Of a stretch of DNA of 64,000 nucleotides, positions 27,702-38,371 are shown piece by piece. The DNA comes from Sulfurimonas sp. HSL-3221 (lineage in GTDB: Bacteria; Campylobacterota; Campylobacteria; Campylobacterales; Sulfurimonadaceae): contig NZ_CP087998.1 in NCBI RefSeq assembly GCF_021044585.1, forward strand, positions 1,488,001 through 1,552,000, written 5' to 3'. The number at the start of each line of letters is the position of its first letter. The first letter of the stretch is position 1. Below the pieces are notes generated by a model. The model did not search any database, had not been told where the DNA came from, and worked only from the letters and a program-made list of their open reading frames with translations. The translations under genes and the position numbers were made by a program.

Positions 27702-30700
27702 TTAATTTTTTGTCAAAACAGAGCCATCTATGCCTGGTATACACCATGTCGCCCCTGTAGAATCCTGCATACAGGAAGCTGACCCATGAATACTTGTCGA
27801 TTCGGCATACTGTATTTCGGTCGTCGTCGGATAGCGGGTCACGCCGTTCTCTACGACGCAGTAATCACCCATCATCCCCTGGATCATGAAACTTCCATCG
27901 GGCAGAACCCATGTCCATTCGATCATATCCAGTCTGGTCGGACAGACATATGTTTCTACCGTACTGCCATCAAACTTGATAGCGTCATATGGGTTGTTAT
28001 AGTCGCTATTCAGAATCCAGATATTATCCTGAGCATCGATGTCCATCCAGAATGGATAGAAACCGGGAGCATTCGGGAAATAGCTTGCGTAGTCGAGCAC
28101 GGCACCCGTGGGAATCTCGCAGTAACCGCTGCCGTCGGCGTTGTACATCAGCACTTCAAAGCTGCTGCACGTCGGACAGTTGTAGCCGTCCATTTGACAG
28201 GTCATCGGCACACAGACTCCGCCGTCAACCTTTTCACCTTCAGCGCAGAGAATATCCTCACAGCTCCCGCTTCCATCAGGGTTATACACAAGCAGCTGTG
28301 TATCGGTACATACTGGACAGTTGTAACCGTCCGCTTGGCAGGTCATCGGGACACACTGCCCGTCCACGAGTTTTTCCGAATCGGCACAGACGATGTCTTC
28401 ACAATAGCCACTGCCGTCGGGATAATAGCGCAACACCTGGTTGACGGTACAGCTCGGACAGTTATAGGCATCCGCTTCACAGGTCAGCGGAACACAGGTA
28501 TTGTTTACCAGTTTTTCACTCTCTGTACAGACAGCAACGGCAACACAGGTGCCATTGTCATCCATGTAATACCCCGAGGTACAATACGTCATCTCGCTCA
28601 CGAGAACATCGGCCGCCCATACGCGTTCCAAGTATAATTCGCCATCTGTATTAAAGAACCGTTGCGTTCCGTCAAGCTTGCCATAACTGTAAGGCGTTTC
28701 GTTCAAGATGATGCCCGTTGACGAGTACGTTTTGCTAAGCCCATGCTTCTGGCCGTCCGTGTACGGCGTCTCGGAAGCGAGCTGCGTCGTATAGTCGAAA
28801 TAGACCTTCTCCACCCCATTCAGCTTGCCGGCAACATAGGGGCGCAAACCCCTTACCGTCGTGCCGTCTTCGCAGTATTCAGTCTCTATCCCCTCCTGCT
28901 GCCCTGCGACCCATGGCGTTTCGATATGCAGCATACGATTGTCATAGTAGCGCTTTTCCATCCCCTGAAGCAGACCGTTGTCATAGGGCCGTTCCAGTGA
29001 AAGGTTCCCGTCTGCCAGGTACCATTTTTCGACACCGTGACGCGTACCATCCGTATACGGCATCTCGTACTCCAGGATTTCCCCCGGATGGTAGGTCTTC
29101 AGCACACCGTCATTGCGTCCCGAAGCGTTATAGGGGTACTCAAAACGCAGTTCACCCGCCGTATAGAGATAACGTACATATGAGCCGTCTTCATGATAGA
29201 CGATTTTCTCGGCCAAAAGACCGTTTTGATCATAGACCATGTACAGGCTGAGCTCACCTGCACTGTTGTAGATTTTTTGCTCCATGACGTGATTGTCGGC
29301 TGTATCATAAAGGGTCCACGTCGCCGGTTTGTAATCACTGTCAAAGCGCGGCGCCACCGTTTCGGACTGATAAATGGTCTCACTGTAGGTCGTCGCACCG
29401 TAGTAGGTCTGCGCCTGCATAATACCGTTTGAATAGGTAACAGCCCTGGTACCGCCATAATCTACCGTCCCATCCACAATGCCGTTAACGAACGGGATGG
29501 AAGCAGCCCGCCAATACTGAGTTCCCCAAGACGTGTAGCCGCAGATGCGCTGCACCGGTTCCATGAGTGTGCGCAGATCTTCGTTGACATACTCCAGACT
29601 GAATTGGCCCTCTTTGACTGTCACCGTTCCGTTCCACAACCCGTTTTGCAGCGTTCCATCCAGCAACAATGCGCCATTGCGCAGAAGCTGTACCGTCCCG
29701 TGCAGTGTACCGTTTTGGTAGTTGGCTGTGAACTCGTAGACATCCCCATTCGTATCCGTGCGTTTCGTATAGTAAACGCCGTTGCGTACACCGGCGGCAT
29801 ACTCCTCGATGTTCGTCGTATTGTTGTCATAGAGATCGAGCGTGTATTGACGCCCGTCCAGCTGACCGTTAAGCGTATTGTACTCTTCGGTCACGACACC
29901 GTTGATGGCAACAGTGCGCTGCACCAGGTTTCCGTTGTCCCATACGGCATCGGTAACTCTATCCGCATACACAAGATTATATTGTGAGCTTTCCGGAGCA
30001 AACACACTATCGACGCTGTGCCATGCACCGTGTTGCAGACCATTCAGATGATAGCCCCACTCGCTCTCTGTGAACCAGGGACCGTGTTCAACACCATTGG
30101 CATATGAGTACAGTGCACGGACGTTCTCCAAGGCATCAAAATAGATTTGCGCCCCGTCAGGCTCGCCGTTACTGAAACTCTCGACATGACTGATCCTGAA
30201 ATCGTTTCCAAAATGCAGCGTCAGCCCGTTTGGAACATCGTTAATGTGTTGCTGCGATGTGATGAGTTTGTCATATTGATAGGAACATCTGTAAGCCCCG
30301 ACATAAAAAGTATCCACATTATCTGCGTATGCCGGTGAGTCAACCAGTTCCGCTCTGTATTTAGGACAAAGCGTTGTATACGAAGCTGCGTTGAGAGAGA
30401 TTTCGCCCTGATACTCCGCCGGAAGCGTCGCCATGGAAGGCAGTTCCCCCGCCGTCGGCAGCACGACATCCTTGACCGAGACCAGGATTTCCGTCTCGCC
30501 AGTCGCATTCTTGTCGTCCGTCACCACCAGTCTAACCGTATGATCCCCCGGGGCGAAGATGTAGTCGTAGCTCTTCGCCGTACTCTCGTTGATCAGGGTT
30601 CCGTTGTCATACCAACTGTATTTGACGATCTTGCCGTCGCTGTCAACGCTGTTCCATCCGGGCAGCGTCACCGTCTCGCCCGCCATGACCAGCTGGTTGG

Positions 30701-33035
30701 CACCGGCAATGGCGACCGGCGCGATGTTGGCCGGTACTGCCGTCTTGATATCGGTCACACTCACGTTTGCAGTCGCGTACTGACGACCGAAACTCTGACT
30801 CAGCTTCTGGCTGCCGCCGATAAAGTAGACCGTATAGTCACCCGGCTGGGTGAACTGGAGTTTCGCGATTTCCCGATTGTTGACATCGGGATAGGTGATA
30901 TACACCCCCTCTTCGGGTAAGACTTTCCAGTCGACATACTTTTGTTCAAACGGGTTATTGATCCCGTCTTCGACAAGCCCGACCACTGTCACCTCGCCGT
31001 AATCAGAAGGCGTAGTGGCTTTCACGCCAAGCTTTGGTAACGAAAAAATGCCGTCATGGTACATCGACCAATTCTTCGTCCAGCCCATATGTAAGTATTC
31101 CATGGAATCCAAGCCCAATTCCGCTTTTAACGTGACATCCACCCCAAGCGTTGCGCCCAAATCCGTCAGGCGATAATCGGCAGATGCATTTTGGATGCTG
31201 CCCTCGGTAGCGATGGCCGCCTGGGCCCAAAGCGGCACGGCCACGCTGCCTTTAATGATTTTCCATGTCTTCGATTGTACACTCGGTATGATTTTGAAGG
31301 TGACATCCGCCTTGCCTTCAACGCTGATCGATGCCGTATAGGTGGGAGTGGGCTCCTCCTTGCTACCGATGGCTTCCCAGCTGTCATTCTCATAACGGAA
31401 ACCCGATTTGATCGGGATGACATTGTTCATTTTGGTGGACGCCTTGATGGCCCCGGCAGCGTTTGCTGTCAGCTCCGCATCCAACCTGAGCGTAATCTCT
31501 TCTAGCACCGGTACGCCCGCCACTAAAAACACCCGAGTAAAGTTACGTTGCCACAGGGGGGCAACGCCGTCGTCAGTGGTACGGACACCTATGGTTTTTG
31601 CCGCTTCGAAGTTCAGCAGTACTTCGGTATCAAAGTGCACGTCACCTTCCAAATACATTTCGGCTTTATCGATCGAGAAGGTGCCTGTTTTTACAACCTG
31701 CGATGTCAGATGAGGGGCGAACTCCACTTTCATCCCTGCAGAGAGCACCCCATCTGGCGTCGAGAGGCTGGCATTGATTGTTCCAAAGCTGATCTCTTGA
31801 CTCTTGGGTACGACATGGATCTCCAGTTCGACCGTTTCCGTTGCCGTTGCACAGGGGTCTGCAGCATTGTCACAGATCACTTCGTCCGCACGCAGTTCAA
31901 ACGTGACCATATAAGGATCCTCGCTCACCATCTGGCTGGTAGCCAGCATCTTGAGCTCGGCGCTGATAAACGTGGGGTCTGTACCGTTTCTGGTCAGTGT
32001 CATTCCCAGGGTTGCAGGGTCAACGACCGTACCGCCATGTGTAACCTTCTCAATGCGGATACCGTTGAATTCATACTCCGGATCGGTTCGATTCGCAATA
32101 ATCGTAGCAGTAAGGGTCTCTCCCTCGTTAACCGCAATCTGGTTTGTCGGCATCGTGACATTAAAGGCGCCAAATGAAGCGCTATACGCCACGGATCGTG
32201 CCGTAGCGGAAGCAGGCGTCGCATGAGACGTTACCGTTTGAGTCGCCTTGAAGCGCCCCGATGCCCAGGTCGTTTCCCGTGTATTTGAGGCGCCTTTGAA
32301 TGCCGTAGTACGCTGCAATGTGCTGCTCATGACTGCCGGGACCTCAGCAGCGTCAAACAAGACGGTGTTTGAAATGAACTGCGTCTGTACAAAGATATCA
32401 TCGACGCTGGCCTCGATCGTCTGCAACTCAATGGTCGTACCAGTTTTGCCGAGCCCCACAACCTTGCGGTAAAAGATATGCTCCAAATCTCCGACGATGA
32501 CATCTCCATAGGCTGGATAAAGTGTCGTGTTCGTCTCGGTGAATGTGATGTTCGTATCGTTGACGACTACATTCACACCGTGAAGATCTGCGACCGGGAT
32601 GATCTTGTAAGCTGATGAGACTGTCGTGCCAAATTCGAGGGTCGTGATCTGTTCCTCTTTGGAAATCACCGAGTTGCCGGCTTTGTCGATGGCTTTGATT
32701 TTGACATGGTAAAGCGTGTTGGGGAGCAGCCCATCTATATCGGCCTCCGCGACACCCGTGACTGTCTTTTTAAGCGAGGCTGTCGTAGGGGTAAAGCCTT
32801 CGGCGGTGTCCATGTGGACTTCATAGACAATCTCGTCGGCAGCCGTGCCGTCGTCGGTAGCCGGAAGCCAAAACAGCGTCACGCCGACCTGTGACGGCGA
32901 GTTCAACGAGACCAGAACCGGTGTTGACGGCGCCAGAGCATCCGCTGATGCTCCCGAGTTACTTCCGCCTCCTCCGCAGGCAGAAAACAGTAGTGCATAG
33001 ATGACAAGTATTACACTTGTTAATGCATATTTCAT
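27702..33035 (-). CDS. 1777-residue surface lipoprotein: FN3, PKD, MORN-2-like repeats, Cys-rich repeats
   Basis: A very large exported protein. The lipoprotein signal (LLFSACGGGG, lipid Cys20) is followed by a fibronectin-III domain (about 35-135), a long beta-rich middle (about 140-760) that I cannot assign, and a PKD domain (about 775-860, DSDGKIVKYSWYDNG). Next come many MORN-2/YwqK-type repeats (about 1000-1490, each with a G..HG or GKLNG core), then three Cys-rich repeats of roughly 50 residues (about 1500-1640, each with VPMTCQ and NCP.C). The tail (about 1645-1777) looks like a propeller-type repeat. It is probably an outer-membrane-anchored adhesion or surface protein. Coding is lower in GC than its flanks. 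Confidence 0.85.
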   Translation of the reverse strand: MKYALTSVILVIYALLFSACGGGGSNSGASADALAPSTPVLVSLNSPSQVGVTLFWLPATDDGTAADEIVYEVHMDTAEGFTPTTASLKKTVTGVAEADIDGLLPNTLYHVKIKAIDKAGNSVISKEEQITTLEFGTTVSSAYKIIPVADLHGVNVVVNDTNITFTETNTTLYPAYGDVIVGDLEHIFYRKVVGLGKTGTTIELQTIEASVDDIFVQTQFISNTVLFDAAEVPAVMSSTLQRTTAFKGASNTRETTWASGRFKATQTVTSHATPASATARSVAYSASFGAFNVTMPTNQIAVNEGETLTATIIANRTDPEYEFNGIRIEKVTHGGTVVDPATLGMTLTRNGTDPTFISAELKMLATSQMVSEDPYMVTFELRADEVICDNAADPCATATETVELEIHVVPKSQEISFGTINASLSTPDGVLSAGMKVEFAPHLTSQVVKTGTFSIDKAEMYLEGDVHFDTEVLLNFEAAKTIGVRTTDDGVAPLWQRNFTRVFLVAGVPVLEEITLRLDAELTANAAGAIKASTKMNNVIPIKSGFRYENDSWEAIGSKEEPTPTYTASISVEGKADVTFKIIPSVQSKTWKIIKGSVAVPLWAQAAIATEGSIQNASADYRLTDLGATLGVDVTLKAELGLDSMEYLHMGWTKNWSMYHDGIFSLPKLGVKATTPSDYGEVTVVGLVEDGINNPFEQKYVDWKVLPEEGVYITYPDVNNREIAKLQFTQPGDYTVYFIGGSQKLSQSFGRQYATANVSVTDIKTAVPANIAPVAIAGANQLVMAGETVTLPGWNSVDSDGKIVKYSWYDNGTLINESTAKSYDYIFAPGDHTVRLVVTDDKNATGETEILVSVKDVVLPTAGELPSMATLPAEYQGEISLNAASYTTLCPKYRAELVDSPAYADNVDTFYVGAYRCSYQYDKLITSQQHINDVPNGLTLHFGNDFRISHVESFSNGEPDGAQIYFDALENVRALYSYANGVEHGPWFTESEWGYHLNGLQHGAWHSVDSVFAPESSQYNLVYADRVTDAVWDNGNLVQRTVAINGVVTEEYNTLNGQLDGRQYTLDLYDNNTTNIEEYAAGVRNGVYYTKRTDTNGDVYEFTANYQNGTLHGTVQLLRNGALLLDGTLQNGLWNGTVTVKEGQFSLEYVNEDLRTLMEPVQRICGYTSWGTQYWRAASIPFVNGIVDGTVDYGGTRAVTYSNGIMQAQTYYGATTYSETIYQSETVAPRFDSDYKPATWTLYDTADNHVMEQKIYNSAGELSLYMVYDQNGLLAEKIVYHEDGSYVRYLYTAGELRFEYPYNASGRNDGVLKTYHPGEILEYEMPYTDGTRHGVEKWYLADGNLSLERPYDNGLLQGMEKRYYDNRMLHIETPWVAGQQEGIETEYCEDGTTVRGLRPYVAGKLNGVEKVYFDYTTQLASETPYTDGQKHGLSKTYSSTGIILNETPYSYGKLDGTQRFFNTDGELYLERVWAADVLVSEMTYCTSGYYMDDNGTCVAVAVCTESEKLVNNTCVPLTCEADAYNCPSCTVNQVLRYYPDGSGYCEDIVCADSEKLVDGQCVPMTCQADGYNCPVCTDTQLLVYNPDGSGSCEDILCAEGEKVDGGVCVPMTCQMDGYNCPTCSSFEVLMYNADGSGYCEIPTGAVLDYASYFPNAPGFYPFWMDIDAQDNIWILNSDYNNPYDAIKFDGSTVETYVCPTRLDMIEWTWVLPDGSFMIQGMMGDYCVVENGVTRYPTTTEIQYAESTSIHGSASCMQDSTGATWCIPGIDGSVLTKN

Positions 33036-33559: not shown

Positions 33560-33585
33560 ACTTCGCGGCGCCCACTAAACAAATT

Positions 33586-33897
33586 AGCTTCGATACATCG
33601 AAGCGCATTCAATCAAATCAGGAATTGGCCTTGAGCGCTCTTTGTAAGCCATCCCGGAGGCATAAAGCCGGGAGGGATGAGCGATTCGCGAAAGGCCGCT
33701 TTTTGTGCTACTTTTTCTAAAAAAGTGGCAAAGAGATAGGCCCCTCATTCTTTTCTTTTTCATAAGAAAAGAACCAAAAGAAAATCGTCGTTGCGCGAAT
33801 CGCACGCTGCTCCCGGCTTTGTGCCTCCGCAGCGGCTTTCAAGGCACGCTTAACGACAGGTCGCCTATTGATTTATGCGCTTCGATGGATCGAAGCT
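33586..33897 (+). repeat. Dispersed element copy C1 (full length)
   Basis: A 312-bp full copy. Module 1 has ATCCC / GGGAT; module 2 has GCTGC / GCAGC with the outer GTCGTT / AACGAC stem. The end hairpins are AGCTTCGATACATCGAAGC (left) and GCTTCGATGGATCGAAGC (right). It is followed after 14 bp by a second copy. Confidence 0.93.
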
Positions 33898-33911
33898 AGT
33901 AAAAGAAAGAG

Positions 33912-34219
33912 AGCTTCGACACGTCGAAGCGCATTCAATCAATTGAAGGTTGGCCTTGAGCGCTCTTTGTAAGCCATCCCGGAGGCATAAAGCCGGGAGG
34001 GATGAGCGATTCGCGAAAGGCCGCTTTTTGCGCTACTTTTTCTAAAAAAGTGGCATAAACATTCTTCTCTATCTTTTCTTTTTACAAAGAAAAGAACCAA
34101 AAGAAAATCGTCGTTGCGCGAATCGCTCGCTGCTCCCGGCTTTGGGCCTCCGCAGCGGCTTTCAAGGCACGCTTAACGACAGGTCGCCTATTGATTTATG
34201 CGCTTCGGGAACCGAAGCT
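33912..34219 (+). repeat. Dispersed element copy C2 (full length, cleanest)
   Basis: A 308-bp copy. Module 1 spans 33952-34022: outer stem GGCCTT / AAGGCC (33952-33957 with 34017-34022), inner stem ATCCC / GGGAT (33976-33980 with 33999-34003). Hairpins in the centre: ACTTTTT / AAAAAGT (34035-34051) and TCTTTTCTTT / AAAGAAAAGA (34072-34095). Module 2, inverted, spans 34110-34180: GTCGTT / AACGAC outer, GCTGC / GCAGC inner. C1 and C2 are joined by AGTAAAAGAAAGAG. Confidence 0.94.
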
Positions 34220-34279
34220 AATCTGAGAGTATAAAGAGCCTGGTCGCAACAGAAGGTACGCATCAAATGAGCATACCCA

Positions 34280-34588
34280 CTACTCCTCTTCATCAACCTC
34301 GTAATCGACAACATGCATCTCTTCTGTGTTGTCTTTTATGAAGTTAAGCACTTCCAGGCTCTCCGGTTCGACCTTGTACCACATCAGGTGCTCCTTCGTC
34401 TTAAAGGTCGCGTAGAGGCACAGGTCATACGAGTGCGCCCCGTGGTTAAAGTCCAGCCCCACCTGCATCGTCTGCAGCCACTCCACCTTTTCGGGCAGCC
34501 CTTCAAGCATCTCTTTGGCTTTGACCATGTTGGCCATCTTGCTCAGTTCGTGTTTGAACTTATACATTTCAACGTGTACTATCATCAT
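34280..34588 (-). CDS. Dabb-type stress-responsive A/B barrel protein
   Basis: A 102-residue ferredoxin-fold dimeric alpha/beta-barrel protein (Dabb, stress-responsive A/B barrel). It shows VHVEMYKFKHE at the start, VEWLQTMQVGLDFNHGAHSYDL in the middle and ATFKTKEHLMWYKVEPESL near the end, all typical of this fold. No cofactor can be assigned. It is convergent with the relic and the repeat pair. Confidence 0.85.
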   Translation of the reverse strand: MMIVHVEMYKFKHELSKMANMVKAKEMLEGLPEKVEWLQTMQVGLDFNHGAHSYDLCLYATFKTKEHLMWYKVEPESLEVLNFIKDNTEEMHVVDYEVDEEE

Positions 34589-34763
34589 TCACCTCGCTTA
34601 GAAAAAATCTGCTATCAACACAATGAACAGTCTGCATCATCCATTAGCTGCCGGCCGAGTTGCAAAATTTATACATGCAGGGGGTATTTCACCACAAAAA
34701 CTCCCCTAAAATCACCCCTTGAATCTAATTTGCATAGCAGCGTAAAACAACCAAGGAGAAAGA

Positions 34764-35138
34764 ATGGCACTAATGGCACTAACAGAGGAGAACTTTGAGA
34801 AGACAATCGCGGACAATGAAATCGTTATCATCGATTTCTGGGCAACATGGTGCGGCCCCTGCAAGCAGTACGGACCCATATTTGAACGCATCGCGGAGAA
34901 CGTGACCGACATCACCTTCGCCAAGATCAACACGGACGAGCAGCAGCAACTCGCCGCGCAGTTCCAGATCCGCTCTATCCCGACAACGGTGGTCATGAAA
35001 GACGAAATTGTCGTGTTCCAGCAGGAGGGGGTTCTCTTCCACGAGAAGCTGCTGGATATCGCGGAGAAGGCGCAGGCGCTCGACATGGACATGGTCCGTG
35101 AAACAATTGCAAAGCAGGAAGCGGCCGCGCAGCAATAA
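34764..35138 (+). CDS. Thioredoxin-like protein (WCGPC)
   Basis: A 124-residue thioredoxin. Active site WCGPC in DFWATWCGPCKQYG, cis-Pro in RSIPTTVVMKDE. Its C-terminus carries an extra helix ending AKQEAAAQQ. AAGGAGA is eight bases before the ATG. It is the intact relative of the truncated gene at 27.3 kb; both start MAL(M/L)ALT(D/E)ENF. It serves as a thiol reductant in the cytoplasm. The main trxA may be elsewhere. Confidence 0.95.
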   Translation: MALMALTEENFEKTIADNEIVIIDFWATWCGPCKQYGPIFERIAENVTDITFAKINTDEQQQLAAQFQIRSIPTTVVMKDEIVVFQQEGVLFHEKLLDIAEKAQALDMDMVRETIAKQEAAAQQ

Positions 35139-35164
35139 GCCTCAAGGCTCCCATATCACATATC

Positions 35165-35473
35165 AGCTTCGACTCGTCGAAGCGCATAAATCAATAGGCG
35201 ACCTGTCGTTAAGCGTGCCTTGAAAGCCGCCCTGAAGGCATAAAGCCGAGAAAGGGCGAGCGATTCGCGCAACGACGATTTTCTTTTGTTTCTTTTCTTT
35301 GTAAAAAGAAAAGATAGAGAAGAATGTTTATGCCACTTTTTTAGAAAAAGTAGCGCAAAAAGCGGCCTTTCGCGAATCGCTCACCCCTCCCGGCTTTATG
35401 CCTCCGGGATGGCTTTCAAAGAGCGCTCAAGGCCAATTGCCAATTTATTGAATGCGCTTCGGGGACCGAAGCT
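35165..35473 (-). repeat. Dispersed element copy D (inverted)
   Basis: A 309-bp full copy in the inverted orientation, between the thioredoxin and clpS genes. Module 2 here has an inner stem GCCCT / AGGGC (not GCTGC / GCAGC) under the module-2 outer stem GTCGTT / AACGAC, a mix that still pairs. Module 1 has ATCCC / GGGGT (one wobble pair). Confidence 0.92.
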
Positions 35474-36116: not shown

Positions 36117-36968
36117 TTGTTTTATTCACCTCTTAGATATCCTGGTGGGAAAGGAAAGCTTTCCAATTGGGTAGCTAATTTCATGCGTCATAATAATATC
36201 AGTGGAGGTGTATATATAGAACCTTACGCTGGAGGGGCAGCAGTAGCACTATATTTATTATTACAAGAGTATGTTGATCATATCGTCATCAATGATGCAG
36301 ATCCAGTGATTTATAGTTTTTGGTGGTCAGTCATCAATGAAACAGATGCTTTAACTACTTTAATTAGGGATACACCAGTGACCATAAAAGAACGGGAAAA
36401 GCAACTCAAAATCATAAATAATACAGACGAACATTCACTTCTTGAAGTTGGTTTCGCAACATTTTTTCTCAATAGAACAAACCGTTCAGGTATTTTAAAA
36501 GCAGGTGTAATTGGTGGTAATCAACAAGATGGAAAATACAAAATCGATGCACGATACAATAAAGAGAATTTAATTGCTCGCATTCAATTAATTGCAAAAT
36601 ACAAAAACAGAATTACATTATTCAATCTTGATGCAATTGAACTACTTAAAGAACCACCAATTAGAGGTTTTAAAAATTCTCTAATTTATTTAGATCCTCC
36701 ATATTTTAAAAAAGGATCACAACTTTATAGAAACTTTTATAATCCAAGTGACCATGCAGCCATTAGAGATTCAATTAAAAAGTTAACCTCACCTTGGATC
36801 ATAACCTATGATAATTGCGATGAGATCAATCAATTATATTCAGATTTTCCGCAAGAAACTTTTTCTATAACCTACTCTACACATATGTCAAGAAACAAAG
36901 GCTCTGAAGTTCTTATTTATAATCCCAATTTACAACTTCAAAATATCCCTTTAAAACAAACGGCTTGA
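36117..36968 (+). CDS. Adenine-specific DNA methyltransferase (Dam/D12 class)
   Basis: A 283-residue N6-adenine methyltransferase of the D12/Dam family. SAM motif I is EPYAGGAAVALYLL, catalytic motif IV is DPPYF in IYLDPPYFKKG, and the start SPLRYPGGKGKL is the family N-terminus. The start is TTG at 36117, preceded by AAGG; the ATG at 36113 is out of frame. Base composition is AT-rich, unlike the flanks, a sign of recent transfer. It converges on the ParB-domain gene with 2 bp between stops. No recognisable restriction nuclease is adjacent, so it is either an orphan methylase or part of a pair with the next gene. Confidence 0.93.
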   Translation: MFYSPLRYPGGKGKLSNWVANFMRHNNISGGVYIEPYAGGAAVALYLLLQEYVDHIVINDADPVIYSFWWSVINETDALTTLIRDTPVTIKEREKQLKIINNTDEHSLLEVGFATFFLNRTNRSGILKAGVIGGNQQDGKYKIDARYNKENLIARIQLIAKYKNRITLFNLDAIELLKEPPIRGFKNSLIYLDPPYFKKGSQLYRNFYNPSDHAAIRDSIKKLTSPWIITYDNCDEINQLYSDFPQETFSITYSTHMSRNKGSEVLIYNPNLQLQNIPLKQTA

Positions 36969-36970
36969 AT

Positions 36971-38371
36971 TCAACCTTCTAAACATACTTTTAAAAACGG
37001 GTAAAGTTCATCCCATAAAGTATTAATAGATTGTTTGGAAGGATGAAAGTTTTTTGAGTGCAAATATTTTTGCAGAGATGTAAATGATAAAAATTGGTCG
37101 TCATTTGCCAAGTGTGTAATTCTCTTTTCCAATTCAGCATCAATCTTATTACGTTGGTGCATGTGTTCCGCAGCTTTAGTACATTTCACAGCTAAACCAC
37201 CACCACCTGAAGAATTCTTGCTACGGTATTCTTCTACAGCCATTTCGGTGAAAGCACGGATTAAAAATGTGGCGGCTATTGGAGTCCCTTTGCTGCCATC
37301 AAGTTGAATTTTCTTCAATTCTACATATATATTATTTAGCTTGTCAGAATGTCCATCAAAATTAAATCGGTGTCTGACAGCATTTACAACTGTTTTTCTA
37401 TCCCATGTAGGTTTAGTTGGTGAGCTTGATTTTGACAAGATTTTCGCACTAGAAGGAGTGCTGTCGTCATCTAGTTTTTCCTGAGGAAATGTCGTTTGGG
37501 TCAATTTATTTTCGTTTTCGCTAGATAGAGAAGCCTTATCATCTTTTGCTCTGAAAGAACGTGGTAGAGTTGATGGAAGCAAATTATATAACTCAAAAAG
37601 CTTCTTTAAATATGTTTCTTGCTGAGATGGATCAAACACGTCTTTGGTTTTAATCTCTTGATCTCGTATTTCCGACAATATGGTATCTAGCATCTTCACA
37701 CGACCATCTGATTTATTAGTCCAAGCGATTTTTCCATCATCAAAGGTAATACCAATTTTCATTAGTCTATCTTTATTTATTAACCTAGTTAAAACAGTTA
37801 TTGGATACTCGTCATTAAAAATAAAACCATGATTTTTTTGGGCAAAAACAACAAGTTGTGCGGCCAGTAGATTGTCATCAGAGATTTTCCGGTCTATTGC
37901 AAACATTGCCTGAGCCATTGCAGTCCAACTTTTTTGACCAATACCTTCATTTTCACCAGTATGAGTTAATTTCATGTGATCATAAATGGCATCTAAATCA
38001 TTAGATTTAAACACAGATACAGTCTCAAATATATCGCCATTATCTGAAGTTTTTTTCGCCAATACATCTATTTTTGCAGCCAATGAATGTTGTTTTGCCA
38101 ATGAAGGATTGGATAATAACTTCAAAGCAGTAGTACGACGGTTTCCATCCATCACAGTTAACCGATTTTCATCATCCTGATAAACAACAATTGGTGAAAT
38201 ACCAAGTCCATTTATTGCAATATCCTCAACCAGATTTATAAAATTTTTGCTATTCAATATTGCTTCAATACATTCACTCTGATCGTTTTTATGTCCAATT
38301 CTTGGGTTTGCCAAATCAAGTTTTAAATCACTAAGGTCTTCTAAACTTGACTTAAAAGATTCGTATCTCAT
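36971..38371 (-). CDS. ParB-like domain protein, unknown
   Basis: A 466-residue protein. Residues about 14-110 form a ParB/Srx-type fold: LDLANPRIGH near the start, NGLGISPIVVYQDDENRLTV, and the box DGNRRTTALKLL, the ParB box II. The rest (about 110-466) is helical with a Ser/Thr/Lys-rich linker (about 285-325) and no motif that I recognise. It is AT-rich like the convergent methyltransferase gene. It could be a DNA-modification-associated factor or defence component; ParB-fold domains are also nuclease or CTP-binding. That is inference. Confidence 0.8.
   Translation of the reverse strand: MRYESFKSSLEDLSDLKLDLANPRIGHKNDQSECIEAILNSKNFINLVEDIAINGLGISPIVVYQDDENRLTVMDGNRRTTALKLLSNPSLAKQHSLAAKIDVLAKKTSDNGDIFETVSVFKSNDLDAIYDHMKLTHTGENEGIGQKSWTAMAQAMFAIDRKISDDNLLAAQLVVFAQKNHGFIFNDEYPITVLTRLINKDRLMKIGITFDDGKIAWTNKSDGRVKMLDTILSEIRDQEIKTKDVFDPSQQETYLKKLFELYNLLPSTLPRSFRAKDDKASLSSENENKLTQTTFPQEKLDDDSTPSSAKILSKSSSPTKPTWDRKTVVNAVRHRFNFDGHSDKLNNIYVELKKIQLDGSKGTPIAATFLIRAFTEMAVEEYRSKNSSGGGGLAVKCTKAAEHMHQRNKIDAELEKRITHLANDDQFLSFTSLQKYLHSKNFHPSKQSINTLWDELYPFLKVCLEG

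Follow-up and report, generated by a model that had tools for sequence, protein, structure and literature searches.

A gene pair matching the PD-Lambda-5 anti-phage system occupies a species-variable chromosomal site in Sulfurimonas and encodes a protein with predicted ParB-like and HEPN folds

Two AT-rich genes lying tail to tail in the GC-rich chromosome of Sulfurimonas sp. HSL-3221 raise the question of whether they form a functional unit and, if so, what that unit does. They were found in a stretch of 64,000 nucleotides, termed the window herein, and a first-pass annotation had proposed them as a defence or modification island, of a kind for which it knew no described counterpart. The proposal was borne out, as both genes match PADLOC models for PD-Lambda-5: protein A aligned to PDLC03998 (PD-Lambda-5_A) over residues 13-462, nearly its full length (244 bits, E = 7e-73), and protein B to PDLC04018 (PD-Lambda-5_B; 392 bits, E = 3.2e-118). 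The PD-Lambda-5_A family (PDLC03998) had no matches in 14 control genomes. It is almost certain that the locus is a PD-Lambda-5 anti-phage system, and the supposed novelty of the pair falls away with its earlier description under that name (PMC9519451).

A functional selection in E. coli uncovered PD-Lambda-5 (Vassallo et al. 2022, PMC9519451); its discoverers, who termed it a compacted RM+Abi system, published plaque protection for it. Cloning of the E. coli system required an mrr-deletion host, and protection was stronger against T-even phages, which have modified DNA, than against lambda (PMC9519451). No later mechanistic study of PD-Lambda-5 was found in the open literature. Plaque reduction has been shown for the E. 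coli copy only (PMC9519451).

The layout and composition reported for the pair were both confirmed (Table 1). ORF coordinates and strands agree on a convergent arrangement with 2 bp between the stops, and the 466-residue ORF carries the ParB-type box DGNRRTTALKLL. G+C content was 32.3% in the methyltransferase gene, 34.5% in the ParB-box gene, and 30.4% and 25.9% in the gaps flanking them. The inserted segment, foreign in composition, has 32.5% G+C as a whole versus 57.1% in the rest of the window, which contains no other stretch of equal length so rich in AT. Chance reading frames can be dismissed, since each ORF matches database models with E < 1e-70. The TTG start of B directly follows an in-frame TGA stop, and the N-terminal sequence (M)FYSPLRYPGGK lines up with the starts of homologues. 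Within the insert, a promoter and terminator scan performed no better than on shuffled sequences, and no Rfam family was found.

Table 1. Features of the inserted segment, its two genes, and the regions of protein A, in window coordinates.
Feature	Position	Strand	Context or evidence
Inserted AT-rich segment	35821-38668		Between clpS (ends 35819) and a TSUP-type transporter gene (ATG 38672)
PD-Lambda-5 B, D12-class N6-adenine DNA methyltransferase, 283 aa, TTG start	36117-36968	+	PADLOC, Pfam, motifs
PD-Lambda-5 A, 466 aa, ATG start, predicted ParB/Srx-fold N terminus and HEPN-fold C terminus	36971-38371	-	PADLOC, AlphaFold2
Predicted ParB/sulfiredoxin-fold NTP-binding-type domain of A, about residues 1-155	37907-38371	-	VIA-align, alignment columns
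Low-confidence linker of A, about residues 273-318	37418-37555	-	pLDDT < 50 at residues 272-318
Predicted HEPN-fold C-terminal domain of A, residues 322-466	36974-37408	-	Separate model, structural neighbours, alignment columns

The same site differs among sister genomes of the genus, with AT-rich inserts of 4.7 kb in G004 and 2.6 kb in G007 and just 45 bp in G005. The G004 cargo (L134:1083-5488) encodes a DUF6791-ThiF (E1-like) protein, a DUF6527 protein, and an HTH-Peptidase_M78 protein matching RmrA models, and that of G007 (L135:1007-3222) includes a SocA/Panacea-domain gene beside genes for proteins of 133 and 436 aa, neither of which matched a Pfam or PADLOC family. Every insert begins directly behind the clpS stop; its right-hand boundary coincides with the transporter start or falls a short way before it. 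PD-Lambda-5 itself was present in one of eight genomes of the genus. The clpS-transporter site is a species-variable gene-exchange hotspot that is at least partly defence-related, and a place to seek more defence genes in the genus. A tRNA-type integration site was considered and rejected, with no tRNA in the window and no att-like repeats around the insert in a repeat search.

Other features of the region were recorded. An intergenic repeat element of about 300 nt occurs at 33585-35461, with 50 BLAST pieces genome-wide, many of them counted on both strands, in a clustered distribution. Its copies near the pair form inverted 206-nt arms (96% complementary) around Dabb-like and thioredoxin genes, and part of the repeat is inverted in sister genome G005. 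At 27702-33035, a predicted lipoprotein of 1777 aa appears, from a reading of its sequence, to have a fibronectin-like start, a long MORN-type tract, and cysteine-rich repeats.

Protein B had been called a Dam-type methyltransferase, a label that holds for the D12 class and is too narrow beyond it. The D12 domain is present (Pfam PF02086, 72.9 bits, cut-off 22), and the motifs EPYAGG and DPPY are intact, with little or no variation among 15 homologues; the score against the NCBI Dam model TIGR00571 (61.3 bits) is below its cut-off of 114.85. When eight genomes of the genus were searched with the PD-Lambda-5 B model, just one besides this had a match, and a weak one (41 bits), so B is not a conserved orphan.

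Whether A and B belong together was examined by neighbourhood analysis in viral and cellular genomes. Single-sequence scans of bacterial and viral contigs with A returned no relative, the patterns being too specific, and alignment queries succeeded. Among 80 A homologues on viral contigs, one stretch ends 21 bases past A; in all of the other 79, B lies directly behind A on its 3' side, with 56 same-strand and 23 convergent arrangements. A second sample comprised 80 bacterial and archaeal homologues (Pseudomonadota, Bacteroidota, Actinomycetota, Bacillota, others, and two archaeal MAGs), three of which run off their contig. By coordinates, B is near A in all 77 loci with room, and in 72 of them it is on the 3' side (61 same-strand, 11 convergent). 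The remaining five (L264, L283, L286, L290, and L292) have a second ParB-like gene behind B; reading the sequence of the first four placed B directly behind A, and L292 was assigned from coordinates.

These counts show that A is near-obligately paired with B, the opposite of two genes that rarely co-occur. They also show that convergent order does not speak against a functional unit: with 23 of 79 viral and 11 bacterial homologues arranged in this way, it is a normal variant. A quick tree built from 67 A proteins required four changes of arrangement, at least two of them forced by well-supported branches, versus 18.8 with shuffled labels, which implies that B flips yet keeps its place behind A. 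The pairing is asymmetric. B homologues without A made up 12 of 31 at ≥200 bits, 4 of 5 at 100-200 bits, and 21 of 21 below 100 bits, as expected if A is dangerous without B. A without B was seen on two Azospirillum plasmids (L033 and L035) and in a gut phage clone (L031).

Several individual loci depart from the common pattern. In L033, A is broken by an IS5-like element, and in L005:631-1498 (G431) B is frameshifted near its C terminus beside an intact, convergent A. Vibrio phage ValB1MD-2 (L032:3132-5571) seemingly carries A as two genes, one for the ParB half and one for the C-terminal half, with B next in the same orientation. L283:4959-9498, L286, L290, and L264 encode A, B, the second ParB-like gene (about 350 aa), and another gene of 330-365 aa, which in L283 had no Pfam or PADLOC match. 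Similar pairs of ParB and partner genes without B occur in L003 and L012. The convergent Gallionellaceae/Pseudomonadota loci L218, L220, and L221 have the B match starting about 0.9 kb behind A, with space for a gene between them.

Protein A was modelled with AlphaFold2 from a 67-sequence alignment (pLDDT 87.6). In VIA-align, its N-terminal region resembled ParB with a CTP analogue (7bnr, Z 9.3, rmsd 3.1 over 95 residues; 7bnk, Z 9.3, rmsd 2.3 over 93 residues) and sulfiredoxin 6ky4 (Z 8.2), and we predict a ParB/sulfiredoxin fold for this half. The C-terminal half, which the first-pass annotation had left as unknown, is predicted to adopt a HEPN fold. Folded alone, residues 322-466 gave pLDDT 91.9 and pTM 0.88, with the structural neighbours 2hsb (Z 9.3, rmsd 3.1, 117 residues), HepT 6m6u (Z 9.1), the AbiA C terminus 8oz7 (Z 8.9), and Csm6 8pe3 (Z 7.3). 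Small helical bundles easily reach middling Z scores, and a Z of about 9 is not decisive alone; the assignment is persuasive because HEPN proteins make up nearly all of the best 25 structural entries. Foldseek matches were weak (E > 0.4), leaving support for the HEPN fold moderate.

Alignment of 67 A homologues shows no variation at N22, R24, G76 N77 R78 R79, A82, W149, and H438; R372 is retained in 60 of the sequences, and position 376 is always E or D. The canonical HEPN motif RX4-6H is absent from A, which has T, S, and L at residues 431-433 and no R there; column 433 of the alignment is mostly L. Because the motif is absent, the domain might be non-catalytic, and catalysis by it is something we infer. 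Searches of Pfam, PADLOC, and PDB sequences identified no known nuclease domain in A; PD-(D/E)XK, HNH, and GIY-YIG domains were not detected. The PDB sequence search gave no match with A itself and, with the A profile, nothing but matches to the low-complexity linker. HEPN domains fused to ParB-like domains have been described, as has their association with R-M genes in the role of suicide RNases (Anantharaman et al. 2013, PMC3710099), and the ParB fold uses its Box II arginine to bind CTP, ATP, or GTP (PMC12704722).

These features suggest a tentative but credible mechanism, in which a self-marking methyltransferase is coupled to a ParB-type sensor with a HEPN-type effector. B would methylate adenine at a specific site across the host DNA, creating a self mark. 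A would act as sensor-effector, its ParB/sulfiredoxin-fold N terminus binding nucleotide and engaging DNA, and the methyl mark would keep it off host DNA. Entry of unmarked phage DNA would then switch A on, and its HEPN-fold C terminus would respond, most likely by RNA cleavage, stopping phage growth and perhaps the cell. The analysis established family membership, near-obligate pairing, predicted folds, invariant residues, and mobility; nucleotide binding, methylation gating, RNase activity, and the abortive outcome we infer. Counted in its favour are the invariant GNRR and H438 and the structural similarities to ParB/Srx (Z 9.3) and HEPN proteins (Z 9.1-9.3), and counted against it are the missing RX4-6H, A without B in L031, L033, and L035, and the frameshifted B in L005. 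As a whole, the explanation that this is a PD-Lambda-5 system working by that mechanism appears rather probable. A more specific version is doubtful at present: A may be a methylation-gated, nucleotide-switched toxin, in which a ParB-type clamp would load exclusively on DNA without the B mark and then fire a HEPN-fold effector with a non-canonical active site at R372/H438. If true, this would be a two-gene unit that follows restriction-modification logic but targets RNA instead of DNA.

The missing HEPN motif also fits a classical type II-like system, in which the ParB/Srx domain of A would be the nuclease that cuts unmethylated phage DNA, with dimerisation or RNA binding left to the HEPN-fold domain. 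B scores 336 bits with a PADLOC type II methyltransferase model, and ParB/Srx proteins are reported to nick DNA in work cited in PMC12839542. However, none of the three nuclease domains named above was detected in A, and the discoverers dropped clones with the high-rate epigenetic escape typical of RM and kept PD-Lambda-5 (PMC9519451); we consider this reading somewhat improbable. Less likely again is a type IV-like or guard logic, in which A is held inactive by the B protein or its mark and released when a phage blocks B or brings its own modification, by analogy with GmrSD, which attacks modified T-even DNA. A is weakly similar to the GmrSD N-terminal domain (GmrSD_N, Pfam; 18.7 bits), and the E. 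coli system protects more against T-even phages than against lambda (PMC9519451). The similarity nevertheless remains under the Pfam cut-off of 33.2 bits, with no HNH match, and a plain type IV system would not need B.

That an orphan Dam lies beside a partition protein unrelated to it by chance alone is hardly conceivable. The convergent orientation would allow it, and a spacing of 2 bp is possible by chance, but the pairing in 79/79 and 77/77 loci and the match of both proteins to the two models of one system argue otherwise. A also scored far under the cut-offs of the ParB partition models (TIGR00180, 12.3 bits, cut-off 58.45; PF02195, 12.6 bits, cut-off 26.3). Together, model cut-offs and co-occurrence rule out an orphan Dam beside a partition protein, and the eight genus genomes contradict the idea of a widely conserved orphan.

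The analysis extends to a further bacterial genus a defence system that has been proven by experiment but not explained mechanistically, and offers a testable domain model of its effector A, with a ParB/Srx-type sensor and a HEPN-fold effector. It also shows that A and B remain linked in bacteria, phages, and a few archaea, regardless of the direction in which B points. The fold assignment, the two-way architecture, and the hotspot are modest additions to what is known of PD-Lambda-5.

Compared with known systems, B shares its D12 domain and motifs with Dam and orphan D12 methyltransferases, but it is below the curated Dam cut-off, missing from most sister genomes, and paired with A. The ParB/Srx-like N terminus of A, with its D/E-G-N-R-R box, recalls the GmrSD/SspE type (a DUF262 ParB-like domain with HNH), whereas A falls under the Pfam cut-off and its predicted effector domain is HEPN-like, not HNH. 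HEPN proteins coupled to restriction-modification (PrrC and RloC; ParB-HEPN fusions, PMC3710099) resemble A in its predicted HEPN and ParB-like domains and its methylase linkage; unlike them, A is without RX4-6H, with a conserved H only and the conserved R on another helix. The closest likeness is to PD-Lambda-5 itself, as both proteins fit its two profile families full-length and the genes are adjacent in a mobile, defence-type setting. The present locus differs in its convergent genes, a minority arrangement in the family (23 of 79 viral loci), and in its place in a chromosomal hotspot, where the insert has no prophage genes besides the pair. The pair is a further copy of a known system; its gene order, though a minority one, is itself frequent among family members.
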